From Betaproteobacteria bacterium (lineage in GTDB: Bacteria > Pseudomonadota > Gammaproteobacteria > Burkholderiales > Rhodocyclaceae): a stretch of DNA of 64,000 bases. The notes below the pieces were generated by a model. That model made no database searches and was not told the origin of the DNA. It worked only from the letters and a program-made list of their open reading frames with translations. Where the stretch lies: assembly GCA_020621405.1 (NCBI GenBank), contig JAHRYN010000001.1, positions 372,001 to 436,000 on the forward strand, given 5' to 3'. Every line of letters begins with the position of its first letter. Positions within the stretch are counted from its first letter, which is position 1. Below are positions 38,038 to 52,475 of the stretch, in pieces. A program made the position numbers and the translations under genes.

Positions 38038-38478
38038 ATGAGCACACAATTCATCGGCGAGGGCAACATCGGCTCGCCCCCCGAGTACCGCGAATTCCCC
38101 AACGGCAATGACGATCCTCGCCGGCTGCTCCGGCTGAACGTGTACTTCGACAACCCCGTCCCCACCAAGGGCGGCGAGTTCGAGGACCGCGGCGGCTTCT
38201 GGGCGCCGGTGGAACTCTGGCACCACGACGCCGACCGCTGGCAGCAGCTCTACCAGAAGGGCATGCGCGTGCTGGTCGTCGGCCGCATGGAGCGCGACCC
38301 CTGGACGGACAACGAAGATCAGCCACGCGAGACCTGGCAGGTCAACGCGCGCAGTGTCGGCATCCTGCCGTACCGCATCGAGTCCGTGGCCCTCAGTCCG
38401 AAGCCACAGGAGGCAGAGCCGAAGCCCCAGGCCACCCCGGAACCGGCTACACCGAAGGAAACGAAGCGCAGGAAGTGA
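38038..38478 (+). CDS. ssb: Element-encoded single-stranded DNA-binding protein
   Basis: The 146-residue protein has an OB-fold SSB domain (residues ~1-115: FIGEGNIGSPPEYREFPNGN, FEDRGGFWAPVELWHHDADR, KGMRVLVVGRMERDPW). A Pro/Glu/Lys-rich tail follows that ends in basic residues rather than the acidic DDIPF tip of chromosomal SSB, so it may not bind the usual SSB partners. It should coat single-stranded element DNA during transfer or replication. The ATG at 38038 is selected on domain start. Topoisomerase III follows after a 279-bp spacer with a 17-bp palindrome. Confidence 0.88.
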   Translation: MSTQFIGEGNIGSPPEYREFPNGNDDPRRLLRLNVYFDNPVPTKGGEFEDRGGFWAPVELWHHDADRWQQLYQKGMRVLVVGRMERDPWTDNEDQPRETWQVNARSVGILPYRIESVALSPKPQEAEPKPQATPEPATPKETKRRK

Positions 38479-38532
38479 CCCGACATGGAGGGCGGTTGCC
38501 GCAGTGCTTCGCCGCCCTCCATGCGCTGCGAA

Positions 38533-38549
38533 CTATCCCCAGGGGATAG
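38533..38549. promoter_or_regulatory. 17-bp palindrome, copy 3
   Basis: CTATCCCCAGGGGATAG again, 55 bp after the ssb stop and 209 bp before topB. Identity of the core with copies 1 and 2 suggests a shared operator for the element. Confidence 0.6.
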
Positions 38550-38757
38550 CTCCACCAACGTCCACCGAGTTCCACGCGCTCCCGGAAATCGCGGCTATCG
38601 GCCCGCACACTTTCGGCCACGCGCCTTCCCCGCACACGCCATTTCATCGGCGTGAAAGCGGTCGCCGCCGCATGCGGCTTGTTTGCTGCCGCCCTCGACG
38701 GCGCTCGGCATCCTCGATCCCAGCAACTCATGAACCACGGGAATCGGATGGACGGAT

Positions 38758-40779
38758 ATGCGGCTGTTCTTGTGCGAGAAGCCCTCCCAGGGCAAAGACA
38801 TCGGCCGAATTCTCGGCGCCACGCAACGCGGTGAAGGCTGCCTCAACGGTTCCGGCGTCACGGTCACCTGGTGCATCGGCCATCTCGTAGAGGCAGCAGC
38901 ACCGGAAGCCTACGACGAGCAGCTCAAGCGCTGGTCCATCGAGCAGTTGCCCATCATTCCCCAGCATTGGCGGGTCGAGGTCAAACCGAAGACTGCCACG
39001 CAATTCAAGGTCGTCAAAGCGCTCCTGGCGAAGGCGACCCAGCTTGTCATCGCCACCGATGCCGACCGCGAGGGCGAGTTGATCGCTCGCGAAATCATCG
39101 ACCTGTGCGGCTACCGCGGGCCAATCGAGCGGCTGTGGTTGTCGGCGCTGAACGATGCGTCGATCCGCGCCGCCCTCGGCAAGCTGCGGTCCTCGGCCGA
39201 GACGCTGCCAATGTACCACTCGGCCTTGGCGCGCTCCCGTGCGGATTGGCTCGTGGGTATGAATCTGAGCCGGCTGTTCACAGTGCTGGGGCGACAGGCG
39301 GGTTACGACGGCGTGTTGTCGGTCGGCCGCGTACAGACCCCGACGCTCAAGTTCGTTGTGGACCGCGACCGCGAGATCGCGCGCTTCGTGTCCGTACCGT
39401 ACTGGGCCATCGCCGTGTCCCTGTTCGCAGACGGCTCCACTTTCGTCGCGCAATGGGTTGCCCCCGACGCCTGCACCGACGACGCCGGCCGCTGCCTGCA
39501 GCAGCCGGTCGCGCAGCAGGCCATGCAGCAGATCCGCACTGCCGGCAGCGCCCAGGTGGTATCGGTCGAGACCGAGCGTGTGCGCGAAGGCCCGCCGCTG
39601 CCGTTTGACCTGGGCACCTTGCAGGAAGTGTGTTCCAAGCAGCTCGGACTGGACGTACAGGAAACCCTGGAGATCGCCCAAGCCCTGTACGAGACGCACA
39701 AGGCCACGACGTACCCCCGCTCGGACTCCGGTTACCTGCCGGAGAGCATGTGTGCCGAAGTGCCCACCGTTCTCGACAGTCTGCTCAAGACCGATCCCTC
39801 GCTGCGCTCAATCATGGGCCAGCTCGACCGTTCGCAGCGCTCGCGCGCCTGGAACGATGGCAAGGTCACGGCCCACCACGGCATCATCCCGACGCTCGAA
39901 CCGGCGAACCTCTCCGCCATGAGCGAGAAGGAACTGGCCGTGTACAGGCTCATCCGGGCGCATTATCTGGCGCAGTTCCTCCCGCACCACGAGTTCGACC
40001 GTACTGTGGCCAAGCTCTCGTGCGGGGGACAGAACCTGGCGGCCACGGGCAAGCAGGTTGTCATCCCGGGCTGGCGCCAGGTGCTGGCCGAGTCGCAGTC
40101 CGAAGACGGCGATGGCGATGGCGATACTGCGGCCCGCGCCCAGGTGCTACCGGCGCTGCGCGATGGCCTGGCATGTCAGGTGGCCGACGTCGATCTGAAA
40201 GCGCTCAAGACGCTGCCGCCTAAACCGTACACGCAAGGCGAGTTGGTCAAGTCCATGAAAGGCGTCGCCAAGCTGGTGTCCGACCCCCGCCTGAAGCAGA
40301 AGCTCAAGGATACGGTCGGCATCGGCACCGAAGCGACGCGGGCCAACATCATCGGCGGCCTGATCGCCCGAGGCTACCTCGTCAAGAAGGGGCGCGCCAT
40401 CCGCGCCTCGGATGCGGCTTTCACTTTGATCGATGCCGTGCCTGCGGCGATTGCCGACCCCGGCACCACCGCCGTCTGGGAACAGGCGCTCGACATGATC
40501 GAAGCCGGCCAGCTCACGCTGGACGTGTTCATCGGCAAGCAGGCCGCGTGGATTTCGCAGTTGATCGCGCAATACGGCAGCGCGTCCCTGTCCATCAAGG
40601 CTCCCCAAGGGCCGGCATGCCCGCAGTGCGGCGCACCCACGCGCCAGCGCAGCGGCAAGAGCGGCCCGTTCTGGTCATGCAACCGCTACCCGGACTGCAA
40701 AGGCACGCTGCCGGTCGAATCCGGCAGCTCCAAGCGCGGCGCCTCGCGCCCGCGCCGTAGCGGCCGCAAAGGCTCCTGA
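38758..40779 (+). CDS. topB: DNA topoisomerase III (TraE-like, element-encoded)
   Basis: The 673-residue type IA topoisomerase has a Toprim domain at the N-terminus (MRLFLCEKPSQGKDIGRILG, ATDADREGELIAREI). The catalytic tyrosine is Tyr319 in ATTYPRSDSGYLP. The decatenation region includes VTAHHGIIPTLEP, and the C-terminal zinc ribbon is CPQCGAPTRQ...CNRYPDCKG near residue 620. It resolves intermediates of replication or conjugation and is conserved in this element class. The basic end (PRRSGRKGS) may aid DNA binding. The start has no strong Shine-Dalgarno; an out-of-frame ATG lies 27 bases earlier. Confidence 0.95.
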   Translation: MRLFLCEKPSQGKDIGRILGATQRGEGCLNGSGVTVTWCIGHLVEAAAPEAYDEQLKRWSIEQLPIIPQHWRVEVKPKTATQFKVVKALLAKATQLVIATDADREGELIAREIIDLCGYRGPIERLWLSALNDASIRAALGKLRSSAETLPMYHSALARSRADWLVGMNLSRLFTVLGRQAGYDGVLSVGRVQTPTLKFVVDRDREIARFVSVPYWAIAVSLFADGSTFVAQWVAPDACTDDAGRCLQQPVAQQAMQQIRTAGSAQVVSVETERVREGPPLPFDLGTLQEVCSKQLGLDVQETLEIAQALYETHKATTYPRSDSGYLPESMCAEVPTVLDSLLKTDPSLRSIMGQLDRSQRSRAWNDGKVTAHHGIIPTLEPANLSAMSEKELAVYRLIRAHYLAQFLPHHEFDRTVAKLSCGGQNLAATGKQVVIPGWRQVLAESQSEDGDGDGDTAARAQVLPALRDGLACQVADVDLKALKTLPPKPYTQGELVKSMKGVAKLVSDPRLKQKLKDTVGIGTEATRANIIGGLIARGYLVKKGRAIRASDAAFTLIDAVPAAIADPGTTAVWEQALDMIEAGQLTLDVFIGKQAAWISQLIAQYGSASLSIKAPQGPACPQCGAPTRQRSGKSGPFWSCNRYPDCKGTLPVESGSSKRGASRPRRSGRKGS

Positions 40780-41313
40780 TCGACCCCATTCCCCGTGAGC
40801 CGTGCCCGCCTTAGGCGGCGTGGCCCGTGTCCCGCATGCCCTGCGGGACGCCCAGCGCGCAACGCCTTCTTGATCCGTGTGCGCGTCCCGCCCAGCCGTC
40901 CCCGGCCGCGGGACCTGAAGGTAGCTTCTCCGCGAGCCGCACCACGCGCGTTCTGTTGATCTGCGTTTCTTCCGCCCTCTGCGAAGGGTCTCCCGATGGC
41001 TTGCCAGGCTGCACGAGCCATCGGGAGACCCTTCGTGGTCAGCGGTAATCGGTGCCGGTGCCCACCGGTGCAAAAACGGGCTCCCTTTGTGCGCGGATGT
41101 GCGCCAGACGATGCCGGCCCCAGCCACGACATGGGCCGGGTGTGATTGCTTGATGAGCAGACGGTTCTAGCGACGACCGGGCCTGCCAATAAGCCCACGG
41201 GTGGTTTTTCTTTCCTCCCGAGCCGAAGGCCGCAGGGCCTTCGGCGCCTTTCTCCTGCCTATCAACGTCCCGGTCCGGCCATTGGCCTGGGCCACACGAA
41301 CAGGAGAGACGAC
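40780..41313. other. 534-bp gene-free, hairpin-dense region between topB and the methyltransferase
   Basis: No convincing gene is present. Perfect inverted repeats occur at 40829-40849 (GTCCCGC/GCGGGAC), 40982-41035 (20-bp arms) and 41223-41244 (CCGAAGGCC/GGCCTTCGG, 4-base loop). The last lies 70 bp before the methyltransferase start. The region could hold an origin of transfer, a regulatory leader or stacked terminators; the sequence does not decide. Confidence 0.5.
40982..41035. repeat. 20-bp perfect inverted repeat with 14-base loop
   Basis: The arm CGAAGGGTCTCCCGATGGCT at 40982-41001 is complemented exactly at 41016-41035. The loop is 41002-41015. No T-tract follows on either strand, so a simple terminator is unlikely. 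Confidence 0.75.
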
Positions 41314-42864
41314 ATGCACCCTCAACCTTGCGCGCCACTGCTGTACGGCAGTGTGTGCAGCGGCATCGAGGCAGTGAGCCTGGCATGGCAGCCGCTCGGC
41401 CTCGAAGCCGCGTGGTTCGCCGAGATCGAACCGTTCCCGAGCGCCGTGCTCGCCCACCACTATCCGCGCGTGCCCAACCTAGGCGACATGACCTCGATCG
41501 CCGACCAGGTTCGCGCCGGCACTGTGCCGGCCCCCGACATCCTGGTCGGCGGCACGCCGTGCCAGTCGTTCAGCGTTGCCGGTGCACGCAGGGGACTGGA
41601 TGACCCGCGCGGAGCCTTGACCCTTGCTTATGTGGAGTTAGCTAATGCCATCGACCAAACCCGCTACCAAGACGGCCGCATGTCGGCCACGCTCGTCTGG
41701 GAAAACGTCCCCGGCGTCCTCAACGACCGCAGCAACGCCTTCGGGCATTTCCTGGGAGCACTGGCCGGAGAAAGCCGTGCGCTCGAACCGCCAGGGCAAG
41801 AATGGGCGCACGCAGGTTGTGTGTCTGGACCCCGGCGCCGCATCGCCTGGCGCGTGCTCGACGCTCAATATTTCGGCGTCGCCCAACGCCGCAAGCGTGT
41901 GTTTCTTGTGGCAAGTAGTGGAGATGGCCTCGATCCCGTCGAAGTACTTTTTGAGCGTGCAGGCCTGCACGGGGATTCTTCTGCGGGCAGCGCGCCGTGG
42001 CAAGGAGCTGCCCGTGTTGCTGGATCTGGTACTGAAGCAGCAGGCGGATACGCAGGATTTGCTGGACTGAAGCAGCCCTACGGCAAGGTCACGACGACGT
42101 TCGGATTCAGTGGCGGCACCGGCCCCGTCGATGTGGCCGCATGCCTGATGGCCGCAGGCCCCAAGCACGACATCCGCACCGAGACGTTCATGGTGCAGTC
42201 GTTCGCCGGCAGCATCAGCCACACCCTCGACACCGCCAACGGCGGCAAGGGCAGCAGCGAGGACGGTACGGGCAAAGGTGTGCCGATCATCGCCTTCACC
42301 GCCCAGGGCAGCGGCGCGGATGCCACGATGGATCTGACGCCGACGCTACGTGCTGGCGGACATCGCAACAGCCATGCGAACGCCGGTGTCGTTCCCGCCA
42401 TCGCCTTCGCGCAGAACAATCGCGGCAAAGTGCGCTTCGAGTCCGGCCACGGACAGGTGGCTTGCACCGTCCTGTCCAACGGCAAGCCGGGCTACGGGGT
42501 GCCGATGGTGGCCTGCGTTGCCCTGCGGGGACGGCAGCATGGTCTTGCCGCTGAGCTGGGCGGCGGCGCGGACAAGCCCCATGTGCTGGCTCCCGACTTC
42601 GAGGCGCATTTCCGGTACGACTGGAATGACCCCGGCCCGGGAGACTGGTCGCATTGGCGCGTGCGGCGGTTGATGCCCGTGGAATGCGAACTTCTGCAAG
42701 GCATGCCCGACAACTACACCCTGGTCCCTTATCGCGGCAAGCCTGCCGCAGACGCCCCGCGCTACAAGGCCATCGGCAATTCCATGGCCGTGCCCTGCGT
42801 CGCGTGGCTGGGTCAGCGGCTGGTGCAGTGTCTGCAAAAGACGGGATCGAGCGCATCGGATTGA
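41314..42864 (+). CDS. C5-cytosine DNA methyltransferase with repeat-containing insertion
   Basis: The 516-residue protein has the C5-methyltransferase motifs in order: I (LYGSVCSGIEAVSLAW, residues 8-24), IV with catalytic Cys83 (GGTPCQSFSVAGARRG), VI (VWENVPGVLND), VIII (FGVAQRRKRVFLVA) and X (RYKAIGNSMAVPCVAWLG). Between VIII and X is an insertion of about 230 residues, including three ~37-residue repeats (VP-x-IAF type units near residues 323, 360 and 396), as in some phage methyltransferases. It probably modifies the element or recipient DNA against restriction. The target sequence is unknown and no restriction enzyme is adjacent. The ATG has the ribosome site caggagag. Confidence 0.9.
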   Translation: MHPQPCAPLLYGSVCSGIEAVSLAWQPLGLEAAWFAEIEPFPSAVLAHHYPRVPNLGDMTSIADQVRAGTVPAPDILVGGTPCQSFSVAGARRGLDDPRGALTLAYVELANAIDQTRYQDGRMSATLVWENVPGVLNDRSNAFGHFLGALAGESRALEPPGQEWAHAGCVSGPRRRIAWRVLDAQYFGVAQRRKRVFLVASSGDGLDPVEVLFERAGLHGDSSAGSAPWQGAARVAGSGTEAAGGYAGFAGLKQPYGKVTTTFGFSGGTGPVDVAACLMAAGPKHDIRTETFMVQSFAGSISHTLDTANGGKGSSEDGTGKGVPIIAFTAQGSGADATMDLTPTLRAGGHRNSHANAGVVPAIAFAQNNRGKVRFESGHGQVACTVLSNGKPGYGVPMVACVALRGRQHGLAAELGGGADKPHVLAPDFEAHFRYDWNDPGPGDWSHWRVRRLMPVECELLQGMPDNYTLVPYRGKPAADAPRYKAIGNSMAVPCVAWLGQRLVQCLQKTGSSASD

Positions 42865-42907
42865 TGCACGACGCCGCCAACCGGCCACGCCATTCTTCCT
42901 CCTGCAT

Positions 42908-42964
42908 TGCCGACGTGTCGGCAGCAGCCAGCAGCCAGGGTGTCCAGGCTGCCGTGGGTTCCAC
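42908..42964 (+). ncRNA. Structured leader motif, copy L1
   Basis: Three consecutive hairpins: A (TGCCGA/TCGGCA, 42908-42923), B (GCAGCC/GGCTGC with 10-base loop, 42931-42952) and C (GTGG/CCAC, 42954-42964). A longer pairing AGGCATC/GATGCCT encloses 42988-43030. It lies in the 243-bp leader of the gene at 43108. The same architecture recurs at three other leaders with compensatory base changes. It is assigned as an RNA by structure only. Confidence 0.6.
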
Positions 42965-43107
42965 CCGCGCCACCCGCCAGTTCGCCCAGGCATCCATCGG
43001 CGAACGCTGCCCACCGGGGCACCGATGCCTCCTTTCTCCAACCCACGGGACGAATGCCGCGTCCCGCCAGGGGCGCGTCATCACCCGGTCGATACTCAGG
43101 ACTTCCC

Positions 43108-43665
43108 ATGGAAACCATTACCCAACAAGACCGCATCACGCTGAACAATTTCAAGGTGGCCGAATTCGCCAGCGAGGAAACGCTGTGCTTCACCGCCATC
43201 GTCGAATTCGACGGCATTCCCATCGCCGAGGCCCGCAACGACGGGCACGGCGGCTCGACGTTCGTGCGTGCGCTGCAAGGCCTGGCCGCGCTGCTGGCCC
43301 AGGCGGAGGAATTCGCCAAGAGCCTGCCGCCGGCCTCGCTCGACATCGATCGAGAGGATGAAGAACCGCTGATCATCGATATCACGCTCGACTTCCTCGT
43401 CGACCAACTGGCCGATGCCATGCACGCCGAGCGCAAGCTGCGTACCGCGTTCAACCGCGACGTCGGCAACAAGGTGCTTTTCATCAAGGACGGCAAGCTG
43501 CTGTTCCTCAAGGGCATCAAGCTCAAAGCCATCGCAGACCGGCCGGCGTATTTCGCATCGCTGCGCGCCCGTCAGGGCCAGCCCATCGTCATCCTCGCAG
43601 AGCTGGGACCGGACGAGGCATTCGCCCTGTGGAAGCAGCATGTGCTGGGCGACAAGACTCGCTGA
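43108..43665 (+). CDS. Conserved element protein of unknown function (185 aa)
   Basis: The product is a soluble, acidic alpha/beta protein with no recognised domain. It opens METITQQDRITLNNFKVAEF. The middle part carries an acidic patch (DIDREDEEPLIIDITLDFLV), and the C-terminal part, VLFIKDGKLLFLKGIKLKAI, looks like a beta-hairpin-rich module. It has no signal peptide or membrane helix. It is a single-gene transcription unit: a structured leader (L1) precedes it and a strong terminator at 43691 follows. Similar hypothetical genes lie between the replication and transfer blocks of PFGI-1-type elements. The start is fixed by the leader and the catch of the N-terminal sequence, without a strong Shine-Dalgarno. 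Confidence 0.75.
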   Translation: METITQQDRITLNNFKVAEFASEETLCFTAIVEFDGIPIAEARNDGHGGSTFVRALQGLAALLAQAEEFAKSLPPASLDIDREDEEPLIIDITLDFLVDQLADAMHAERKLRTAFNRDVGNKVLFIKDGKLLFLKGIKLKAIADRPAYFASLRARQGQPIVILAELGPDEAFALWKQHVLGDKTR

Positions 43666-43690
43666 CCCAGCTTCGCCTTATCCTCCTGAC

Positions 43691-43722
43691 AGCCCCGCAT
43701 TTGCTGCGGGGCTTTCTTTTTT
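43691..43722 (+). terminator. Intrinsic terminator
   Basis: AGCCCCGC and GCGGGGCT flank a 7-base loop and are followed by TTTCTTTTTT. It separates the unit at 43108 from leader L2; together these account for the gap 43666-44001. Confidence 0.92.
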
Positions 43723-43806
43723 CCGCGTTCGCCAATCGGGGCTGTTGCAGATGCCGATTTCCGGCTGACGCGGCTCGCCTCGCGCACGAAGCTGCCCGCA
43801 TGTGTC

Positions 43807-43868
43807 GCTGATCCGTCAGCAGCATGCCAGCAGCCAGGGTTTCCAGGCTGCCGCGGATTCTCTCCGCG
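43807..43868 (+). ncRNA. Structured leader motif, copy L2
   Basis: Hairpins A (GCTGA/TCAGC, 43807-43820), B (GCAGCC/GGCTGC, 43830-43851) and C (CGCGGA/TCCGCG, 43852-43868). A larger pairing GCATCG/CGATGC encloses 43889-43928 with an inner GGAC/GTCC stem. L1 and L2 share primary sequence over about 60 bases, while hairpins A and C differ by paired changes. It is the leader of the gene at 44002. Confidence 0.6.
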
Positions 43869-44001
43869 CCACCCGCCAGTCCGCCATCGCATCGAGTCTG
43901 CGGACGCGCGTCCTCGTGACGCCGATGCATTTTTTTTCAACCGCATGCGGGAGCTGCCATCCCGTGAGGGACAAGGCCCCGCTTCTCCAAGGAGACCGTC
44001 C

Positions 44002-44214
44002 ATGTCCCAGCAAGCCTCTTTCGGCCAATTGGCCTTGATCCATTGCGGCAAGTTCCTGCCGCTCGAAGTCCTGCATAGCGCCGCCGGCCACTACATCGGC
44101 ACGCGCGATACCGAAGGTCCCGTTTCGCGGGAATCCTGCCAGTACTTCCGCAGCTATGCCGCGGCTCAACGTGCCCTCGAAAGAGGCGGCTGGTCTCAGC
44201 TCGCCACACCCTGA
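44002..44214 (+). CDS. Small element protein of unknown function (70 aa)
   Basis: The 70-residue product (MSQQASFGQLALIHCGKFLP...) starts at ATG 44002 after a strong aaggaga ribosome site. It looks like a small beta-rich cytosolic domain (EVLHSAAGHYIGTRDTEGPV) ending in helix (FRSYAAAQRALERGGW), with no membrane segment. Leader L2 precedes it, and the next gene follows after 21 bp, so the two are probably cotranscribed. Function unknown; similar short ORFs are common in this part of PFGI-1-type elements. Confidence 0.7.
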   Translation: MSQQASFGQLALIHCGKFLPLEVLHSAAGHYIGTRDTEGPVSRESCQYFRSYAAAQRALERGGWSQLATP

Positions 44215-44235
44215 TCCAACTTGAGGAATCACGTC

Positions 44236-44628
44236 ATGAACCAGCTTTTGCCACGGGAAGTCGTCGATCAGATCATGCGGGAAGAGCAGCACTTCGCCGC
44301 CGCGCCCCAAGCCTTCTTCGAGGCCTGGAAGCGTGGCGTCGAGATCGCAGGCCCGCAATGGTTTGGCGACGGCACGCGCGACGGCCTGAACCAGGCCAAG
44401 AGCAAGTGGGACCTGCGTCCCGACATGCTGCGTGCCAACGACGCTCTCGGCGTCCTGAGCAGCGGAGAACGCATGCTCCTGTCCGCCATGTTCAGCTTCT
44501 ACAACGCGCGCGAGGGCGGTGCCATGCTCAAGCGCTGCCACTTCCAAGGACTGTCGGACTTCGACGGTCTCGATCTGCAACGCCGCAAGGTCATCGCCGA
44601 CCTGCTGGTGAACTACAGCGGTTGGTGA
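44236..44628 (+). CDS. Element protein of unknown function (130 aa)
   Basis: The product is a helical cytosolic protein of 130 residues (MNQLLPREVVDQIMREEQHF; LRANDALGVLSSGERMLLSA; CHFQGLSDFDGLDLQRRKVI). The ATG at 44236 with ribosome site tgagga is preferred to a TTG at 44221. It is downstream of the 70-codon gene and is followed by a clear terminator at 44671. No domain is recognised. The hydrophobic SAMFSFYN segment is too short to span a membrane. Function unknown. Confidence 0.75.
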   Translation: MNQLLPREVVDQIMREEQHFAAAPQAFFEAWKRGVEIAGPQWFGDGTRDGLNQAKSKWDLRPDMLRANDALGVLSSGERMLLSAMFSFYNAREGGAMLKRCHFQGLSDFDGLDLQRRKVIADLLVNYSGW

Positions 44629-44670
44629 GCCGGTCTCCGGCATACCACCGTCTTTTTGTTCACTGCCCAT

Positions 44671-44709
44671 GAGGGACATGCGCCCACGCGACCATGTCCC
44701 TCAATTTTT
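44671..44709 (+). terminator. Intrinsic terminator with 10-bp stem
   Basis: GAGGGACATG and CATGTCCCTC flank a 12-base loop, followed by AATTTTT. It ends the 44002-44628 unit. Confidence 0.8.
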
Positions 44710-44780
44710 CTTCCGTCAGCCTGCGCCGATTGGCCCAAAGCCATCGATCAGTGCCGCCTGACGCTTTTTCCACTTTCAAC

Positions 44781-44804
44781 CCACCGGGGTTCAATTCCCG
44801 GTGG
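44781..44804 (+). promoter_or_regulatory. 8-bp leader hairpin before the 245-codon gene
   Basis: CCACCGGG and CCCGGTGG flank the loop GTTCAATT, 38 bp before the start codon. A related GGTTCAATTCC stretch occurs in the next leader (45651). It may be a regulatory hairpin shared by these leaders. Confidence 0.45.
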
Positions 44805-44841
44805 CGGGAATTGGCTCCATTATTCAATCTGGAGAAATCCC

Positions 44842-45579
44842 ATGACCCAGAATCCCAATCCCTTTGTACGCGGCTACTGGAATCTGAAAATCGTCCGAAC
44901 GCTGTGCATCAGCTACGGGGACGGAAGTCCGCATGTGTGGCGAAACATCCACGCGAGCCAACAGCACCTCTCCGACGGGGCGCTGGTTTCTTCCCCCTGC
45001 ATCGTCACCAGCGACTTCGCGTGGATCAGGAACGGCACTGACGCCATCAGCGACGAGCTGATCGCCGAATGTGATGCTGTTGAAGGCATCAACGGCGAAG
45101 GCGTGGTGGGCGCCGTGGTCTATGCCATCCATGGCGACGACCTCGACGGCCGCCCGGTCCACATCGGTGACACCTATTCCGAGGAGGCCGCGCGCGACGT
45201 GGTGCAGCGGTTGAGTTTCGAGACCGGCTATTACAGCCGCTGCTGGGAAATCAGCAGTGCACACATCAGCCAAGAAACCGGCCAGTACCTCGCCAACCTG
45301 GCAGACCTTGCAACACCGGAGGCCTTTCTTTTCATCGCCTTCCGGGTTCCGTACAGCCCGGCGATTGGCGTCAAGCTGATCTCCACGCCCTGGACAGACA
45401 AGAACCTGGAATATGCCGAGGGCATCAGTGCGGAGCAGCTTCGACAGGAGCACCGGGACAAGGGCATGCCTGACGACCTGGCAAACATCCTTGAATTGGC
45501 CGGCCAGGCCGATGTGCGCATCCTCATCCTAGATGCCGACGCACCCGCGCTACTGGGCCTGCCACTGGCTGAGACCTAG
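44842..45579 (+). CDS. Element protein of unknown function (245 aa), possibly DUF5983-related
   Basis: The 245-residue cytosolic protein opens MTQNPNPFVRGYWNLKIVRT. The middle contains RPVHIGDTYSEEAARDVVQR, then ISSAHISQETGQYLANLADL, which resembles the STAHIxxE pattern of the DUF5983 family common in conjugative elements. I recognise this only weakly. It ends with DVRILILDADAPALLGLPLA, a beta-strand-like stretch. The ribosome site is tggagaa. It is followed at 97 bp by another small gene with its own leader hairpin. Confidence 0.72.
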   Translation: MTQNPNPFVRGYWNLKIVRTLCISYGDGSPHVWRNIHASQQHLSDGALVSSPCIVTSDFAWIRNGTDAISDELIAECDAVEGINGEGVVGAVVYAIHGDDLDGRPVHIGDTYSEEAARDVVQRLSFETGYYSRCWEISSAHISQETGQYLANLADLATPEAFLFIAFRVPYSPAIGVKLISTPWTDKNLEYAEGISAEQLRQEHRDKGMPDDLANILELAGQADVRILILDADAPALLGLPLAET

Positions 45580-45621
45580 CAGATGCACGACGCGCAAGCC
45601 TTCCCCTTCATCCCCCACATG

Positions 45622-45652
45622 CCAGCCCGCCTCCCACCAGGAGCCGGGCTGG
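45622..45652 (+). promoter_or_regulatory. 8-bp leader hairpin before the 92-codon gene
   Basis: CCAGCCCG and CGGGCTGG flank a 15-base loop, 24 bp before the start codon at 45676 and just before its aggagc ribosome site. Confidence 0.5.
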
Positions 45653-45675
45653 TTCAATTCCATAGGAGCAATCTC

Positions 45676-45954
45676 ATGTTCCCCGACCTCATCTTGCCCA
45701 CGCCCGACTTCGAGAATCAGCTTGGAGCCTGCGTCGACGCCATGAGCCAGGACGACGCCATCGGCCAGATCCTGGTATTCGAACGCATGAGCGGTACGCT
45801 GCACATGCGCCATATCGACAGCGCCGATCTGGTGGACACCGACATTGACGACTACGAAATGGTCGTATTCGACGGTGGCAACACAAGCGGTGACACGTGG
45901 AAGCACGTGTTCTTCCCGCGTCAGCGCGAACACTACTTCGTGTACGAAGCCTGA
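45676..45954 (+). CDS. Small acidic element protein of unknown function (92 aa)
   Basis: The 92-residue product is very acidic (DTDIDDYEMVVFDGGNTSGD) with a short helical N-terminus (MFPDLILPTPDFENQLGACV). It has no recognised domain. The ribosome site aggagca is correctly spaced from ATG 45676. A strong intrinsic terminator follows within five bases of the stop, so it ends a transcription unit. Acidity and small size would fit a DNA-mimic or antirestriction-type protein, but this is only a suggestion and no such family motif is present. Confidence 0.7.
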   Translation: MFPDLILPTPDFENQLGACVDAMSQDDAIGQILVFERMSGTLHMRHIDSADLVDTDIDDYEMVVFDGGNTSGDTWKHVFFPRQREHYFVYEA

Positions 45955-45958
45955 CCCC

Positions 45959-45982
45959 AAGCCCCTTTCGAGGGGCTTTTTC
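45959..45982 (+). terminator. Intrinsic terminator
   Basis: AGCCCCT and AGGGGCT around a TTCG tetraloop, followed by TTTTT. Confidence 0.92.
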
Positions 45983-46070
45983 TTGCCCACGGCACAGGAA
46001 AGCGGGTGCGACGGGGTGCTGTTTCCTGCGGGCGAGCCGCTCACTCCCGGGCCATTCTTGCCCCATGTTC

Positions 46071-46137
46071 GTCGGCGTTGCCGACACATGCCCAGGCAGC
46101 CGAGACCTTCAAGGCTGCAAGCACGGGAAACCGTGCT
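46071..46137 (+). ncRNA. Structured leader motif, copy L3
   Basis: Hairpins A (GTCGGC/GCCGAC, 46071-46085), B (GCAGCC/GGCTGC with 11-base loop, 46096-46118) and C (AGCACGG/CCGTGCT with a GAAA tetraloop, 46120-46137). The stretch CATGCCCAG links A and B, close to CATGCCAG in L2 and L4. It is the leader of the gene at 46235. Stem sequences differ from the other copies but pairing is kept. A GGAC/GTCC hairpin follows at 46154. Confidence 0.62.
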
Positions 46138-46234
46138 GGTCGATGCTTTCCACGGACGTGCCGCGTCCACACCCACAAGGGACCTCTCCCTTGCGGGCGG
46201 GGAATCCCTTGTTTCTTCCTCAAGGAGATTTCCC

Positions 46235-47047
46235 ATGGACCGTTCCCTCATCAAATCCATGATGCCTTCGCTTGTTGCAGGCCACGTGCCCCGCAACGTG
46301 CGGTCGTTCAAGTACCGCGTGTTCGACGATCAGCCGCAGTCTTCGACATTGGGCTTCGTCATCGACCCCCAGCCCTTCGACGGGAAGGTAGTCGCAATCA
46401 CTGACGACGCCATCGTCGTCAAGCTCAAGCCGAGCGAGTTCGCTGTGCTCGATTCCAAGCTGGTGACCACCGTCCCCGACGAAGGCGCCAAGGTGCATGT
46501 CCTACCCTACGCACGGCGCCGTTTCGATGGGCTGCGGGCGGACACGCCGGAAGAGCGCACCGAGATGACGTCCGACGGCATTCCCTACACCGTCAAGACG
46601 CACATCCTCGGCTCCGCGCCGGCCAAGCTGCCCATCCCCGAGCCGCAGTGCATGGAACTGGGCCAGCTCATCCAGCAGTTGGAGGAAATGCCAGCGCCCG
46701 ATGGCTTCCGGCGTATCACCCACATGCTGGTCGATGCCGGTGCCCGGGATTTCACCTGGGTCGATCCGACACCGTCCAAGATCATCGAGACGCCTCCGGC
46801 GATCAGCTTCACGGTCTTGACCGCGAAGTTCGAGGGCCGGGTGACGGTGCTGTACGACCGAGGTGGCGACACCTACATGGTGGAGCTGCACCGCGACGGC
46901 GAATTGGTCGATCGGCATGACGAGGTGTATTTCGACATGCTCGGCGAAGTGTTGGAGCGACTTATCGACGACGGACGTTGGCGCGTGATCGATGTGAGCG
47001 TGATCGACGCCAAGGCTGCCCGGCAGCGCCAGGCGGTGCCGGCATGA
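46235..47047 (+). CDS. Element protein of unknown function (270 aa)
   Basis: The 270-residue cytosolic protein starts MDRSLIKSMMPSLVAGHVPR after a strong caaggaga ribosome site. Residues ~45-95 are beta-rich (KVVAITDDAIVVKLKPSEFA), and the C-terminal half has FEGRVTVLYDRGGDTYMVEL. The shape is of two small beta modules. No catalytic motif is visible. It is present as a conserved hypothetical in related elements. It has its own structured leader (L3) and a long pairing (GGCTGA/TCAGCC with an inner CCGTGG/CCACGG hairpin) at 47078-47109 after the stop. Confidence 0.75.
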   Translation: MDRSLIKSMMPSLVAGHVPRNVRSFKYRVFDDQPQSSTLGFVIDPQPFDGKVVAITDDAIVVKLKPSEFAVLDSKLVTTVPDEGAKVHVLPYARRRFDGLRADTPEERTEMTSDGIPYTVKTHILGSAPAKLPIPEPQCMELGQLIQQLEEMPAPDGFRRITHMLVDAGARDFTWVDPTPSKIIETPPAISFTVLTAKFEGRVTVLYDRGGDTYMVELHRDGELVDRHDEVYFDMLGEVLERLIDDGRWRVIDVSVIDAKAARQRQAVPA

Positions 47048-47188
47048 CGCCGGGGACTGAATCCTGGCGGTTCTTCGGCTGACCCGTGGCTCCCGCCACG
47101 GCGTTTCAGCCCATTGGTCATGTGCCCACAGGCTCTCCATCCAGGCGGGTGGAGGGCCTTTTCTCTATCCACACAGGAGATTTCAACC

Positions 47189-47542
47189 ATGTCACTGCGA
47201 TTCAAAGGCTCCGACCTGCGCCCCGTGCTGACCGAGGCCATCGCCAGCCAGTGCCCCGTCATCCTGGTCAAGGACCAGGGCGTGTACTTCCTCGCCGAGC
47301 AGGGAGAACGCCGCCCGGATGGGCGAGTGAAGCTGCTGGCCTATGCCGTCGGCTGCAACCCGGATACCGATCCGTTCGACGACTGGTGGGAGCTGGCGCG
47401 CGCCGAACTGGGCGGCGACGACTTCGCGGAGTACTTCGACCCGAAGGACGGCGTATTCACGCGCATCCTGCACACCGAAGACGACCTGATGCTGTCGGCC
47501 ACCGCCACACATCTGTCGCTGGAGGTGGTGCCTCCCGCATAG
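47189..47542 (+). CDS. DUF3085 family element protein
   Basis: The 117-residue product has the conserved DUF3085 pattern (MSLRFKGSDLRPVLTEAIAS, PVILVKDQGVYFLAEQGERR, AYAVGCNPDTDPFDDWWELA). The family is small, soluble, and mostly encoded by conjugative elements and their hosts; its function is unknown. The ribosome site is caggaga. A strong terminator at 47569 follows. The intervening gap to the next gene (47543-47908) holds this terminator and leader L4, and no gene. Confidence 0.85.
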   Translation: MSLRFKGSDLRPVLTEAIASQCPVILVKDQGVYFLAEQGERRPDGRVKLLAYAVGCNPDTDPFDDWWELARAELGGDDFAEYFDPKDGVFTRILHTEDDLMLSATATHLSLEVVPPA

Positions 47543-47568
47543 CGCGGCAACCGCCACTCGACTCTCGC

Positions 47569-47595
47569 AGCCCCCGCGCCGGGGGCTTTCTTTTT
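47569..47595 (+). terminator. Intrinsic terminator
   Basis: AGCCCCC and GGGGGCT around a 5-base loop, followed by TTTCTTTTT. Confidence 0.92.
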
Positions 47596-47689
47596 GCGTT
47601 GAGCCGGGCTGCGTGGACAAAGGGGAACACCCGGATGCCAATTGATTGCTGCCGCGCGCGCGAGGGCCGGCCATGCTGACCCCATGCCT

Positions 47690-47756
47690 GCTGACGTTGT
47701 CAGCGACATGCCAGGCAACCATCGGTCTTTGAGGTTGCGGCGCAGTTTCCACTGCG
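47690..47756 (+). ncRNA. Structured leader motif, copy L4
   Basis: Hairpins A (GCTGAC/GTCAGC, 47690-47704), B (GCAACC/GGTTGC, 47715-47738, a paired change from GCAGCC/GGCTGC) and C (CGCAGT/ACTGCG with TTCC loop, 47741-47756). A long stem follows: GCATCCA/TGGATGC enclosing CCACCAG/CTGGTGG at 47777-47818. It is the leader of the STY4534-type gene at 47909. Confidence 0.62.
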
Positions 47757-47908
47757 TGACCAAGCCAGCTCGCACCGCATCCATCCGCGAGCGGCCACCA
47801 GTCCCTGGTGGTGGATGCTTTCGCCTTATCAACCCATCGCGGGGTTACGCACCTTTCCCCGCATGCGTGGGCTCGGTGTGTCTCCGCTTTTCCCAATGGA
47901 GATTCACC

Positions 47909-48832
47909 ATGAACACCACTTCGAACGAGAAATCGTATTTCGACCTCCACACCTCGGGCATCGGCTACATCCAGCGTGTCCGTGAAGTGCCCGTCAGGGG
48001 CGGCCGCCGTGCGCAGCCCTTCCTGGCATGCACCATTGCCGCGCTGGTCGGCCCCGCCAGGGACCCCAGCTACCGCTACTTCGACGTCAAGGTCTCGGGT
48101 GCCGAGGCCAAGAAGCTCGTTCAGCGCTATATCGGCGTTGACGATCCCAAGCAGCGCCCGCTGGTGCGCTTTCGCCTCGGCGACCTTTGGGGCGATGCGT
48201 ACATCCGTGACAAGGGCGAGAACCAAGGCAAGGCCGCCGCGTCTCTCAAGGCGCGACTGCTCAAGGCCGAGCTGATCGAGCGGGCCGAACTGGCTTCGAT
48301 CGAGCAGCACGAGCTGATCACCCGTGGCATCGGCTACCTCAACCGTCCGAAGGACATCACCCCCAAGGATGGTGACCCGTTCCTGTCGTGCTCCATCGCC
48401 GCGCTCGCCGGACCTGTCGATGAACCGGAATATCGGTACTTCGACACGATCGTCGCCACCCCTGAAGCCGAGCATCTGGTTCGCCGATGCGTGCAGGCCA
48501 TCGAAGGGGATCGCAAGGTACTGATCGCCTTCCGTCTCAACGACATGAAGATCGATCCGTACATCCGCACCAAGGGCGAGCACGCTGGGGAACCGGCCGC
48601 AAGCCTGGAATCGACGCTGGTCCACATCGGTCTGATCAAGATCGATGGCACCCAGGTCTATCCGACGAGCCAGGCACAAGCCGAGGCAGCGCCGGTGGAG
48701 GACGCACCCGCGACCGAAGCCGTCATCGACACTGCCGCCGACGCCGTTTCCGACCAATCTGCCGAGCCCGCTGAGCGCGAGTCCGAAGTTGAAGTCGAGG
48801 AGCAGGAGCCGGCATTGGCTGCTTCGTTCTGA
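47909..48832 (+). CDS. STY4534-type ICE replication protein (DUF3577) with an internal duplication
   Basis: The 307-residue protein consists of two similar halves. GIGYIQRVREVPVRGGRRAQ...FLACTIAALVGPARDPSYRYF at residues 17-60 is repeated as GIGYLNRPKDITPKDGDPFL...SCSIAALAGPVDEPEYRYF at residues 137-178. An acidic Ala/Glu-rich tail of about 60 residues follows. The family (DUF3577, STY4534) is annotated as a replication-associated protein of SPI-7-like islands, and the repeated fold is likely to bind single-stranded nucleic acid. The start lies after tggagatt. It has its own leader (L4), and a GGCCCC/GGGGCC hairpin with T run ends it at 48843. Confidence 0.83.
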   Translation: MNTTSNEKSYFDLHTSGIGYIQRVREVPVRGGRRAQPFLACTIAALVGPARDPSYRYFDVKVSGAEAKKLVQRYIGVDDPKQRPLVRFRLGDLWGDAYIRDKGENQGKAAASLKARLLKAELIERAELASIEQHELITRGIGYLNRPKDITPKDGDPFLSCSIAALAGPVDEPEYRYFDTIVATPEAEHLVRRCVQAIEGDRKVLIAFRLNDMKIDPYIRTKGEHAGEPAASLESTLVHIGLIKIDGTQVYPTSQAQAEAAPVEDAPATEAVIDTAADAVSDQSAEPAERESEVEVEEQEPALAASF

Positions 48833-48889
48833 TCCGGCATGGCCCCTCACGGGGCCTTGCCTTTTTCCTATTCGTCAAGGAGAACCATC

Positions 48890-49579
48890 ATGGCAGCCAC
48901 ATCGGCACCTACGAGATCAGTCCTACCCATCGTCGTTCCGGGCCAGCTCACGTTGCGGACCATCCGCGGCAAGAACGGCCCGTTCACGGTTGGTCGTCTT
49001 TCCACCCCCATCGGCGAGTTCGCGGTTAAAGACGCGGAGTTGGAGCAGTACCCCGAAGGCAAGTACGACGGGGATTTCGTCATTCGCTACATCTTCGCGA
49101 AGTCCTACCCGGTCGCGGGCGGCGCGCGGTTTGAAGTCCGCGCCAACCTCGATGGTATGACGCTCAACGGCATCGACAAACTGAGTCGTGATGAGGCCCG
49201 CAGCTTCGCCACCCAGGAAGTCGATCCACTCGATGAAGAGGTGGGGACGCAACCTGCGGAAACGCCGGCCAAGCCCGCCAAGGCCTCCAGACCCGCCAAG
49301 CCCGCACCCGTGCAGGCCTCGGCGGACCCGCTGGTCGATACCACGCCCTTCGGTGTGGACGCACCGACGCTCGCTGCGGCGGCTGCTCCCGACGGCACCG
49401 AAGGGGGCGACAGCGCTTTGTTCGGCCTGCTCTGGCCACTGGGCGAGTCCGTCAAGCTGGATTCGACCATCGACCGCCGGGCCCTGCGCGCGCAGATCGC
49501 CCGCCTGGGTGAACTGGGCTACGCGCTTAACTTCAAGACGCAGGAGTGGAGCCGCCAGGCCGAACTGCAACCTGCGTGA
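48890..49579 (+). CDS. DUF3275 family element protein
   Basis: The 229-residue protein shows the DUF3275 pattern: IVVPGQLTLRTIRGKNGPFT, FTVGRLSTPIGEFAVKDAEL, and EGKYDGDFVIRYIFAKSYPV in an N-terminal beta-rich domain of about 100 residues. A Pro/Ala/Lys-rich linker follows, then a C-terminal segment (LFGLLWPLGESVKLDSTIDR). The family is restricted to conjugative elements and has no known role. The ribosome site is caaggaga. It lies 57 bp after the STY4534-type gene. Confidence 0.85.
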   Translation: MAATSAPTRSVLPIVVPGQLTLRTIRGKNGPFTVGRLSTPIGEFAVKDAELEQYPEGKYDGDFVIRYIFAKSYPVAGGARFEVRANLDGMTLNGIDKLSRDEARSFATQEVDPLDEEVGTQPAETPAKPAKASRPAKPAPVQASADPLVDTTPFGVDAPTLAAAAAPDGTEGGDSALFGLLWPLGESVKLDSTIDRRALRAQIARLGELGYALNFKTQEWSRQAELQPA

Positions 49580-49672
49580 TCGCAGACACCGCATGCACGG
49601 TGTTCTTCATCCACCCGCCGGGGTTCTTTCCCTATGCGGAGAGGCCCCGGCTTTCTTCTGGAGGTCTCCATC

Positions 49673-49999
49673 ATGTCCACCATCGCTTGCGATACACCCC
49701 GTTCTGCACTGGATGAACCCGCGTGGCGGGCTCTCTGCGAGACGGCAGCCGCACAAGCCACCAAGGGTTGCGGACTGTCTCACGACTACTACGTAGAGCG
49801 CTTCAGCTCGGCGATCGACGCGCAAGTTGGTCGATTGCCCGAAGAACATCGCGCACAGGCGCTGCAGATCGCACAGGAATGGGACTACGCCACACCGGCC
49901 GAAAGGCAGGAAACCCAGGACTGGAACGCCGAAAACGGCTATTGCTCGCACGGAATCGAACTGGGTTATTGCCCGGCCGGTTGCGATTCGGACTATTGA
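49673..49999 (+). CDS. Element protein of unknown function with C-terminal cysteines (108 aa)
   Basis: The 108-residue product is helical for its first 75 residues (WRALCETAAAQATKGCGLSH; AQALQIAQEWDYATPAERQE). It ends with a histidine/cysteine cluster (NGYCSHGIELGYCPAGCDSD) that could bind zinc. The start MSTIACDTPR follows a tggaggt ribosome site. A hairpin ACACCG/CGGTGT lies between the previous stop and this leader. Function unknown; a zinc-dependent regulator is one possibility. Confidence 0.7.
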   Translation: MSTIACDTPRSALDEPAWRALCETAAAQATKGCGLSHDYYVERFSSAIDAQVGRLPEEHRAQALQIAQEWDYATPAERQETQDWNAENGYCSHGIELGYCPAGCDSDY

Positions 50000-50101
50000 G
50001 GTCCGGCACACGTCATCGCCGCTTGCGCGGCTTTTCTCCACCGCTTGGGGCAGCACCTACCTCAGGGGCGGTGCTGTTTCCGATTCACCGAGGACATCAC
50101 C

Positions 50102-50443
50102 ATGAGTCGGCACTACTTCGACACCATTCACAAGGGCTTTCCCATCACTGTCGTACTGGGCTGGGACCGGCCGGCAAATTACTTCTTCCTATTTATCGAG
50201 AAGCCGGCCGAGCTGATCGACGATACCGCGAAGGTCGAGAGCGACGACTTCTTGTACAGCAACCTGCACGAGAGCGACCCGTTCAACCACGACCTGGACT
50301 ACTACCGAGTGGTCCTGCGCCATTTCCAGATCGACGTGCCCGAAAGCATGTTCACCGAAGTCCAACAGGACTGCGAGGGCAACGTTGGCAACCGGGTCGT
50401 CAAGCATCAGGCCGACGGCTCGTTCACCGAACAGACGTTCTGA
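50102..50443 (+). CDS. Element protein of unknown function (113 aa)
   Basis: The 113-residue cytosolic product (MSRHYFDTIHKGFPITVVLG) seems beta-rich and acidic, with DDFLYSNLHESDPFNHDLDY in the middle. No domain is recognised. Its leader holds two hairpins: GCCGC/GCGGC followed by TTTTCT at 50017-50037, probably ending the previous unit, and CAGCACC/GGTGCTG at 50051-50076. The ribosome site is cgagga. Comparable small genes occur at this place in related elements. Confidence 0.7.
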   Translation: MSRHYFDTIHKGFPITVVLGWDRPANYFFLFIEKPAELIDDTAKVESDDFLYSNLHESDPFNHDLDYYRVVLRHFQIDVPESMFTEVQQDCEGNVGNRVVKHQADGSFTEQTF

Positions 50444-50547
50444 ACGCCCAAGCGGATCGAACACCTGATCCGCATTCCTTCATCCCTAACGGGGCATTCG
50501 CTGCCCCTGCGGGCGGTGCTGCCCCTCATTTCATCGAGGACACCACC

Positions 50548-51198
50548 ATGCACGCACACACTTCATCCACCACGCTGTTCCACATCGACGAATGCCCGGA
50601 CCTGATGGCCGACGCCTGCGTCGGCGACGACCAGGGCAGCCTGATCTTCCTGTCCATCTGGGCGCGCGACACCGCCGTCCAGCAGTTCCTCGCCCGCCTG
50701 ACCCTCGGGCGCGACGAGCAGGGACTGGACCAGTTCCACATCCTCACCGACCAGGGCGGCAGCGTCCCGGTGTTCATCGGCAACGTCGATCATCTGGAGA
50801 AGCGCATCACGCGGGCCTACCGGCGCACGCTGTTCGGCTCCCTCTCCAACGTGTGGCTGTTCGACCGGCGCTGCGTCAAGCCCGACAAGGCCAACGCCAG
50901 CGCACTGGCATTGCTGCCACGCGACAGCGCCCACCGGCTTGACCGCCTGTGGACGCTGGTGCGCGACACCTGCCCGTTGCCGCTACTCGACCACTGGCGC
51001 GAAACCGTGCTGGAGCTGCTGCAGACCCGCGAGATGCTGGCCCGCCTTCCGTTCGCCCTTGGGCCGTTGGAAGGCCATCGGCTCGCCATCGACGTGCCGG
51101 CGCTGACCCTGGCGCTGGGCTCTCTGATCCGCAGTGACGCACTCACCGCCTATCCCTATCCGGCCAAGATTTGGACGCCGAAAGCGGTAGCGGCTTGA
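50548..51198 (+). CDS. Element protein of unknown function (216 aa)
   Basis: The 216-residue protein opens MHAHTSSTTLFHIDECPDLM, followed by a beta-rich part (GSLIFLSIWARDTAVQQFLA; SVPVFIGNVDHLEKRITRAY) and a helical C-terminal half (LLDHWRETVLELLQTREMLA). The frame extends far upstream, but codon use and the leader hairpin GGGGCA/TGCCCC at 50491-50507 place the start at 50548 with ribosome site cgagga. No enzymatic motif or membrane helix is visible. Function unknown. Confidence 0.75.
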   Translation: MHAHTSSTTLFHIDECPDLMADACVGDDQGSLIFLSIWARDTAVQQFLARLTLGRDEQGLDQFHILTDQGGSVPVFIGNVDHLEKRITRAYRRTLFGSLSNVWLFDRRCVKPDKANASALALLPRDSAHRLDRLWTLVRDTCPLPLLDHWRETVLELLQTREMLARLPFALGPLEGHRLAIDVPALTLALGSLIRSDALTAYPYPAKIWTPKAVAA

Positions 51199-51262
51199 TC
51201 CACCCGCGGAGGCACGCCTTGGCGTGCTTCCGCCATTCCTTCCCGCCAACCAGGAGACTTCC

Positions 51263-52372: not shown

Positions 52373-52415
52373 CCTCTTTCCACCGCCGACGGTTCGGCGT
52401 TTCTTCTCCCACCAC

Positions 52416-52459: not shown

Positions 52460-52475
52460 TCTTCGGAGCATCACT

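Follow-up and report, generated by a model that had tools for sequence, protein, structure and literature searches.

Copies of the radC RNA in a PFGI-1/ICEclc-type conjugative element and a possible translational switch in its leaders

The radC RNA (Rfam family RF01754) was listed by Weinberg et al. 2010 in a table whose row reads 'radC Y y ? Proteobacteria' and names no tested function (PMC2864571). For this family Rfam and ZWD do not agree, and the part of PMC7657543 dealing with it has CaCoFold add covarying pairs, so that its pseudoknots may already be on record. Our search of the literature found no functional test of this RNA, listed in 2010. The columns of the table row presumably state that it is an RNA (yes), that it is cis-regulatory (probably) and that its being a riboswitch is open. 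Here we analyse copies of the radC RNA in a stretch of 64,000 nucleotides (the window) from Betaproteobacteria bacterium, GenBank assembly GCA_020621405.1, contig JAHRYN010000001.1, positions 372,001 to 436,000 of the forward strand. The copies belong to an element of the PFGI-1/ICEclc kind, an integrative and conjugative element (ICE) with ICE_PFGI_1_parB, a PFL_4669/AcaB protein, ssb, topoisomerase III, STY4534, TraD and TIGR03759.

A scan of the window with all of Rfam returned four matches: all are RF01754, all are on the plus strand and all are full length (model positions 1-149), with the scores of Table 1 at a gathering score of 40. A fifth copy (133.8 bits) lies 3.6 kb beyond the window, 82 nt upstream of the ATG of a RadC-domain gene, and the search of the whole genome found five copies, all on this contig (414892-439723). 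A sequence-only reading of the window had described four gene leaders with one shared order of hairpins, A, B and C; this motif is real, stands where it had been placed and is far beyond chance by its RF01754 scores. By covariance score all copies belong to the same family, and the Rfam match confirms the RNA while taking away the novelty of the motif: it is a known but unexplained family. The stems A and B had been quoted correctly for all four copies and stem C for copies 2 to 4, but 'GTGG/CCAC' of copy 1 is part of a longer stem, GTGGGT/ACCCGC. The distance to the start codons, given as about 100-150 bp, measures 98-153 nt when counted from where the core, as first delimited, stops. That core was well located, but the full motif is longer. 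Helix PK1 and a 3' pseudoknot had been overlooked, as had the fifth copy outside the window and a downstream hairpin that hides the Shine-Dalgarno sequence (SD).

An alignment of 87 distinct rows has eight helices with 43 pairs (P1/A, B, C, PK1, the interleaved PK2a and PK2b, and hairpin D), in which 95.4% of the cells are paired, compared with 24-43% when the columns are slid by 1-3 positions. Both sides have changed in 38 of the 43 pairs, and none of 500 shuffles of the 87 rows reaches any of five measures, which bears out the earlier proposal that the paired substitutions reflect a selected secondary structure. PK1 is formed by the loop of B with a strand 3' of C and shows the exchanges AU/GC/GU and UA/CG/GC; PK2a (GUUCGC-like) and PK2b (GCAUCC-like) form the 3' pseudoknot, placed around hairpin D and present in copies 1, 2 and 4 (class I). 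Class II, with 18 of 86 rows including copy 3, consists of stems A, B, C and PK1 and lacks the 3' pseudoknot. The alignment was fitted to the nested structure P1, A, B, C, PK2b and D; PK1 and PK2a were thus not built in. The printed nested RF01754 model differs from this anatomy: it lacks PK1, PK2a and PK2b, begins (5') with promoter-like columns and ends before the SD-hiding platform described below. Folding energies of single copies were discarded as evidence, as the antisense strands fold equally well (z of -1.6, -3.0, -3.0 and -2.1 for copies 1 to 4, compared with -1.5, -1.9, -4.0 and -1.75 for the sense strands); the convincing evidence is the covariation.

A fold that acts in the transcript tolerates G.U but not A.C pairs, while a fold of the template strand shows the reverse when read on the sense strand. 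In 86 rows (one short row of the 87 was dropped, and class II rows were left out for PK2 and D) there are 141 G.U and 30 A.C, where shuffling partners within columns gives 1.46 to 1; 48 representatives of less than 85% identity have 93 and 12, with 1.61 to 1 in composition shuffles. These counts omit the poorly supported column pair 57-100; with that pair they are 142 vs 44 and 93 vs 16, respectively. New loci, counted for nested pairs only and without a composition shuffle, have 126 G.U vs 20 A.C (61 rows) and 51 vs 8 (29 representatives). As judged from the aligned sequences, selection acts on the RNA of the sense strand.

The RNA precedes unrelated genes. A same-strand open reading frame (ORF) of at least 50 amino acids starts no more than 230 nt 3' of 136 of 138 distinct motifs, the other two being at contig ends. 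BLASTP groups these ORFs into 14 clusters, of which STY4534 has the most members (44), ahead of the copy-3 gene (37), the copy-2 gene (23) and radC (16); a handful of isolated ORFs are doubtful, and in some cases the gene begins further off. A copy lies directly 5' of the STY4534 gene in all 80 loci fetched, and 250 of 250 matches are on the strand of that gene; the loci are the best 80 of 534 and many are nearly identical (60 distinct among 150 aligned). The motif is thus found upstream of homologues in related elements, and the earlier idea of a cis-acting RNA shared by unrelated downstream genes is supported.

Genomes above the RF01754 cut-off are 10 of 101 relatives, 9 of 399 from the order, 6 of 398 from the phylum and 2 of 369 from the class, in draws that partly overlap and each count the genome of the window; there are 7 of 13 in the genus of G783 and 79 of 149 in the genus of G637. 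The ten genomes of the first draw have 3 to 14 copies each. This distribution is patchy, as expected of mobile DNA. DNA similarity searches with copy 4 identified four plasmid records and no match among phages, and the motif of locus L054 had no match in E. coli. On the Stutzerimonas plasmid NZ_CP063359.1 (L171) the order is topoisomerase III, radC RNA, a hypothetical gene and STY4534; radC RNAs thus also occur outside chromosomal elements. Another class II group (L075:1207-1863, L066, L074, L080) precedes an unrelated gene of 218 amino acids. By eye, ORF 49723-51198 of the window contains a similar sequence; the Rfam scan gave no radC RNA there.

Most class I motifs are followed by a hairpin that hides the SD, and its arms co-vary across gene families: CCTCCGAT/ATTGGAGG, GTCTCCG/TGGAGAT, CGTGCTCC/GGAGCACG and GTGTTTCTCC/GGAGAAACAC. 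Of 41 class I leaders, 31 have an SD-hiding helix of at least 6 bp (shuffles give 39%, and none of 60 reaches the observed value). Chromosomal genes have such a helix in 8 of 31 cases (shuffles give 24%), and genes inside operons of the elements in 6 of 27. The new loci comprise 61 distinct motifs, 19 of them with no start codon in the scanned range, either because the contig ends or because the linker approaches or exceeds 200 nt; of the remaining 42, thinned to 25 of less than 80% identity, 22 have the helix (shuffle mean 6.0, maximum 13). Helix length replaced the mean SD pairing probability, which discriminates poorly in GC-rich DNA (0.84 for class I, 0.79 for class II, 0.73 for other element genes, 0.64 for the chromosome; shuffles 0.65-0.74).

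The arm that hides the SD (Y; the SD strand is Z) has a second potential partner, a strand X in the linker between the radC RNA and Y. Of 42 leaders, the 35 whose linker measures 60-120 nt were used: X:Y pairing there has a mean z of -1.86 and z is below -1 in 29; the SD arm itself gives no signal against the linker in these leaders (mean z 0.13). The possibility that the anti-SD arm pairs directly with the radC domain itself was considered and rejected: the mean z is 0.41, slightly weaker than shuffles. In 27 of the 35 leaders a gene's own combination of arm and linker is better than swaps with other families, by 2.77 kcal/mol on average (radC genes 5.33, STY4534 3.31, others 0.73 kcal/mol). 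The new loci give z below -1 in 18 of 22 and a better own pair likewise in 18 of 22, here with same-family swaps included. Within the STY4534 leaders only 3 of 19 predicted pairs have changed on both sides, a family too uniform to serve as a test.

Copy 4 and the fifth copy show the platform clearly. With the linker of copy 4 folded without the radC domain, the SD-hidden Y:Z state has -34.0 kcal/mol and the best SD-open state (X:Y) -28.2 kcal/mol; opening the SD costs 9.6 kcal/mol in copy 3 and 7.6 kcal/mol in the fifth copy. For the STY4534 and radC-gene families, complementarity also predicts a second partner of the anti-SD strand. In three loci (L213, L222, L208) the radC RNA stands about 200 nt instead of 90 nt 5' of the STY4534 gene, with extra hairpins in between. 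In L057 and L211 (family f55) it is followed by several hundred bases with no clear gene and then, by eye, by an HsdM-like or primase-like gene; the platform may differ there.

The upstream side has features of a predicted promoter region that is separate from the RNA. A dyad AA..CGG-(~14)-CCG(A/T)TT, mostly 26 bp long and ending 29-30 nt 5' of the motif, is present in 29 of 48 non-redundant upstream regions, counted apart from the radC-gene copies, with a pattern drawn by eye from the same sequences (shuffles: mean 0.7, maximum 4 in 500 runs); it is absent from all ten radC-gene copies. The strict pattern fits copies 1 and 2 of the window, and the dyads of copies 3 and 4 were found by position weight matrix (PWM) alone. 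On 120 kb of chromosome the matrix finds four sites of 13.9-17.0, so that the scores of copies 1 and 4 (16.5 and 17.0) are not significant alone. The opening columns of the motif read AnnCT, with A in 40, C in 37 and T in 45 of 48 regions, and resemble positions 2-6 of a -10 box; the first columns of the RF01754 model (42892-42901 and equivalents) look like such a box rather than RNA. TTGAC lies 24-25 nt 5' of the motif in 6 of 48 regions, all of family f55, and in 11 of 25 new leaders; a general promoter scan found no sigma-70-type site at the copies. Two further dyads in the window have no radC RNA: 36564-36598 (PWM 20.7), 5' of an AcaB/PFL_4669-like gene (36619-37440), and 59027-59061 (PWM 17.1), between genes at 59026 and 59125.

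Published data on ICEclc can be brought to bear on these leaders. ORF names of ICEclc were mapped via stop positions on the element of LB400 (L158) with one constant, a sum of 90713: ORFs 89247, 88400, 87986, 85934 and 84835 end at 1466, 2313, 2727, 4779 and 5878, and 89746 ends at 968 (off by one). No ORF ends at the expected places of 83350 and 81655 on the LB400 element, and since ORF81655 has no place there, colinearity ends after copy 3. By these coordinates copies 1, 2 and 3 precede ORF89247, ORF88400 and ORF84835; judging by order, copy 4 most likely precedes ORF81655. The ICEclc breakpoint 73676-74436 was considered as the site of the fifth copy and dropped, as the gene distances do not fit.

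The transcript data of Gaillard et al. 2010 (PMC2892462) describe separate mRNAs for 85934-88400, 83350-84835 and 68241-81655, the last one of 14.5 kb. That study calls the transcripts that contain ORF81655, ORF87986 and ORF84835 highly abundant, and dot-blot signals from different probes of the ORF81655 unit are 168 for ORF81655, 11.1 for ORF75419 and 2.6 for ORF73029. The same data include a weak primer-extension product about 250 bp 5' of ORF81655 (PMC2892462); copy 4 begins 236 nt 5' of the ATG of its gene. Rapid amplification of cDNA 5' ends (5'RACE) failed upstream of ORF81655 and ORF88400 and in four other regions (PMC2892462). In the promoter study PMC9286271, P88400 and P81655 are bimodal promoters that share a motif of 27 bp, present in eight of nine bimodal ICEclc promoters and in no other ICEclc region, while coverage rises 5' of ORF84835 and ORF89247 with neither promoter activity nor the shared motif; post-transcriptional control was suspected by its authors for Pint and P81655. 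The published transcript maps place transcript starts of ICEclc at copies 2 and 3 and probably 4, not at copy 1. The passages on these promoters in PMC9286271 and PMC2892462 do not mention the RNA.

Each copy of the radC RNA would then form the 5' part of the mRNA leader of one of the element's own genes and act post-transcriptionally. Transcription would start at a promoter that has its -10-like box in the first columns of the motif, and the message would begin with the folded RNA; an exception is the copy of the radC gene, which sits behind a coding gene. As covariation shows, the RNA folds into P1/A, B and C, locked by PK1, with the 3' pseudoknot added in class I. Strands X, Y and Z follow between motif and start codon in most class I leaders: Y:Z pairing would keep translation off and X:Y pairing would turn it on, the pairing being read from the sequence and its effect conjectural. 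A trigger bound by the radC RNA, either a protein of element or host or a small molecule, would decide between the two states and gate several genes together. Class II copies, with their short linkers, would need a simpler version. On this model the alternative partners of Y would make a working switch, and the radC domain would throw it. We consider the chances about even that radC-led leaders are translational switches that hide and free the SD, with the radC RNA as their upper part. Somewhat less probable, though still a serious possibility, is the wider proposal that a gene-independent translational switch, with the radC RNA as its sensing domain, gates several establishment and replication genes of PFGI-1/ICEclc-type elements at once, with messages made bistably and translated upon a further signal, e.g. 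in the recipient or after excision. The riboregulator or protein-binding leader of the sequence-only reading may now be worded more specifically, given the SD-hiding platform in most class I leaders. The anatomy turns a 'structured leader' into a precise, testable scheme of two helices. If true, conjugative elements of this family control their own genes post-transcriptionally with an RNA switch of their own, one that belongs to the element's own life cycle.

Several observations weigh against such a switch. The analysis revealed nothing that connects the radC domain with X, and opening the SD would cost just 2.1 kcal/mol in copy 1 and 3.8 kcal/mol in copy 2, where the platform is poor; the family of the copy-2 gene has no X:Y gain at all, its own pairs being worse by 0.61 kcal/mol. 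In class II the SD helix is present in 7 of 13 leaders, not above shuffles (8 of 60 reach it), and linkers of about 33 nt place this class outside the X:Y test. Other intergenic genes of the elements also lean towards SD hairpins (40 of 92, 43% vs 34%; 2 of 60 shuffles reach it), so that the hairpin is not specific to the radC RNA. Tetraloops on stem C give weak support for RNA and are not general: of 86 rows, 15 have UUCG and 5 have GAAA, and of 61 new rows just 3 have UUCG. In ICEclc, copy 1 lies inside a transcript in which reverse transcription PCR joined ORF89247, behind this copy, to ORF89746, and by coordinates the promoter predicted for the copy-2 unit (89,109) is about 290 bp 5' of the motif (both from the transcript maps of PMC2892462); the cloned piece 5' of ORF84835 had no promoter activity (promoter assays of PMC9286271).

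Other functions of a leader RNA have to be weighed against the switch. The radC RNA could be a 5'-end stabiliser or processing site, with the SD hairpins merely insulating the genes from read-through. The motif begins where the promoter-like boxes place the start site, the ICEclc transcripts named above are highly abundant, and the regions of rising coverage, for which processing is one reading given by the authors (PMC9286271), contain copies 3 and 1 by coordinates. This would leave unexplained why linker and anti-SD arm are complementary; moreover, the 5'RACE failures extend to four other regions and thus say little on the RNA, and the published ICEclc breakpoints 62755-63176, 66202-66625 and 73676-74436 are not tied here to any copy. 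We regard it as unlikely. Still less likely in our view is a binding site without a switch, at which an RNA-binding protein of the element represses or localises all radC-led messages in the manner of ribosomal-protein leaders: several copies per element before unrelated genes would suit it, but no candidate protein emerged, no search having been aimed at one, and it overlaps with the switch, as the protein could be the trigger.

Processive antitermination, with the RNA modifying RNA polymerase to pass terminators in long transfer operons, has a precedent in the put RNA of HK022, which modifies RNA polymerase for terminator read-through. The copies stand at the starts of units, one of which is the 14.5-kb mRNA, and terminator-like sites follow the first genes of units 3 and 4. 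However, terminator-like sites lie 0.7, 2.0, 0.9 and 1.0 kb 3' of copies 1 to 4, the homologous units of ICEclc have been reported as transcripts of their own, and the dot-blot signal of ORF81655 stands far above those further along its unit, as if termination works. Antitermination, which had been among the functions first suggested, is not supported and appears improbable. The other early suggestion, a promoter made of single-stranded DNA and active after conjugative entry, would be of the Frpo/ssi kind and serve in the recipient. The element is of conjugative type and its gene company resembles that of plasmid leading regions (ssb, topoisomerase, methyltransferase), but such a promoter needs the template strand to fold, and in the representatives A.C is 6 to 8 times rarer than G.U; the excess of G.U on the sense strand contradicts it. 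The boxes are also in ordinary double-strand order, 5' of P1 and outside the stems, the dyad is missing from the ten radC-gene copies, and the UUCG and GAAA loops agree with RNA, albeit in a minority of 20 of 86 rows. We give this promoter very little chance.

Table 1. Features of the radC-led leaders and units (positions in the window)
Feature	Position	Strand	Remarks
radC RNA copy 1	42892..43028	+	class I with 3' pseudoknot; leader of 43108-43665; RF01754 68.3, R1 63.7 bits
radC RNA copy 2	43789..43928	+	class I; leader of 44002-44214 and 44236-44628; RF01754 78.6, R1 75.6 bits
radC RNA copy 3	46054..46200	+	class II; GAAA loop on stem C; leader of 46235-47047; RF01754 98.6 bits
radC RNA copy 4	47673..47818	+	class I; leader of 47909-48832; RF01754 122.5 bits
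copy 4 stem A	47690-47695/47699-47704	+	sequence, covarying pairs
copy 4 stem B	47715-47720/47733-47738	+	sequence, covarying pairs
copy 4 stem C	47741-47746/47751-47756	+	sequence, covarying pairs
copy 4 PK1	47724-47727/47758-47761	+	sequence, covarying pairs
copy 4 PK2a	47768-47773/47787-47792	+	sequence, covarying pairs
copy 4 PK2b	47777-47782/47813-47818	+	sequence, covarying pairs
copy 4 hairpin D	47795-47801/47805-47811	+	sequence, covarying pairs
X, linker strand, copy 4	47839..47853	+	complementary to Y, partly to 47857-47862
Y, anti-SD arm, copy 4	47875..47887	+	predicted to pair with Z or X
Z, copy 4	47898..47908	+	SD and CACC adjoining ATG 47909
operator-like dyad, copy 1	42831..42865	+	PWM 16.5, near best chromosomal background 17.0
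operator-like dyad, copy 2	43728..43762	+	PWM 26.7
operator-like dyad, copy 3	45993..46027	+	PWM 26.4; strict pattern not matched
operator-like dyad, copy 4	47612..47646	+	PWM 17.0, equal to best chromosomal background; strict pattern not matched
-10-like box, copy 1	42891..42896	+	same relative place as in copy 4
-10-like box, copy 2	43788..43793	+	same relative place as in copy 4
-10-like box, copy 3	46053..46058	+	same relative place as in copy 4
-10-like box nAnnCT, copy 4	47672..47677	+	overlaps first columns of Rfam model
gene after copy 1	43108..43665	+	ATG 43108; 185 aa, no Pfam/NCBIfam match
gene after copy 2	44002..44214	+	ATG 44002; 70 aa, no Pfam/NCBIfam match
gene after copy 3	46235..47047	+	ATG 46235; 270 aa, no Pfam/NCBIfam match
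gene after copy 4	47909..48832	+	ATG 47909; STY4534 family ICE replication protein, two DUF3577 stretches
intrinsic-terminator-like hairpin	43691..43713	+	after copy-1 gene
intrinsic-terminator-like hairpin	45959..45978	+	end of copy-2 unit
terminator-like hairpin	47130..47159	+	after first gene, copy-3 unit
terminator-like hairpin	47569..47587	+	end of copy-3 unit
terminator-like hairpin	48841..48856	+	directly after first gene, copy-4 unit

Terminator-like sites are frequent in this part of the window: positions 38000-54000 have 23 where 9.8 are expected, and those at 43691, 47130 and 48841 stand directly after the first gene of radC-led units. A long hairpin with a U-tract (TGAGGGACATG...CATGTCCCTCAATTTTT, 44670-44709) follows 44236-44628; it is outside the list of the terminator scan, probably owing to its loop.

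Among systems described elsewhere, the STAXI motif is likewise a candidate RNA with pseudoknots that occurs close to genes for ssb, topoisomerase, antirestriction and integrase, and its authors weighed single-stranded DNA and preferred RNA because of the UUCG loops (section on STAXI in PMC2864571). It differs in consisting of tandem pseudoknot repeats and is a separate family, with no match in the window at the gathering score. Frpo/ssi promoters are similar in that structured DNA between genes stands upstream of the establishment genes in conjugative elements, as outlined in PMC11541004 and PMC9849209, but the polarity and the promoter position of the radC motif speak against such a promoter. 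Translational riboswitches with an anti-SD/anti-anti-SD platform share the upstream folded domain and the three competing strands that end in the SD; the platform here differs from theirs in that it varies by gene, is poorly developed in copies 1 and 2 and does not fit into class II leaders, and no ligand is known. The transfer-competence promoters of ICEclc could be compared by description: their published motif of 27 bp (PMC9286271) is close in length to the dyad found here, mostly 26 bp, yet it is absent 5' of ORF84835 and ORF89247 while the dyad scores high at copy 3, which speaks against identity. Through ICEclc the radC RNA is now joined to a well-studied ICE, whose published maps place abundant mRNA starts at the homologues of copy 2, copy 3 and probably copy 4.

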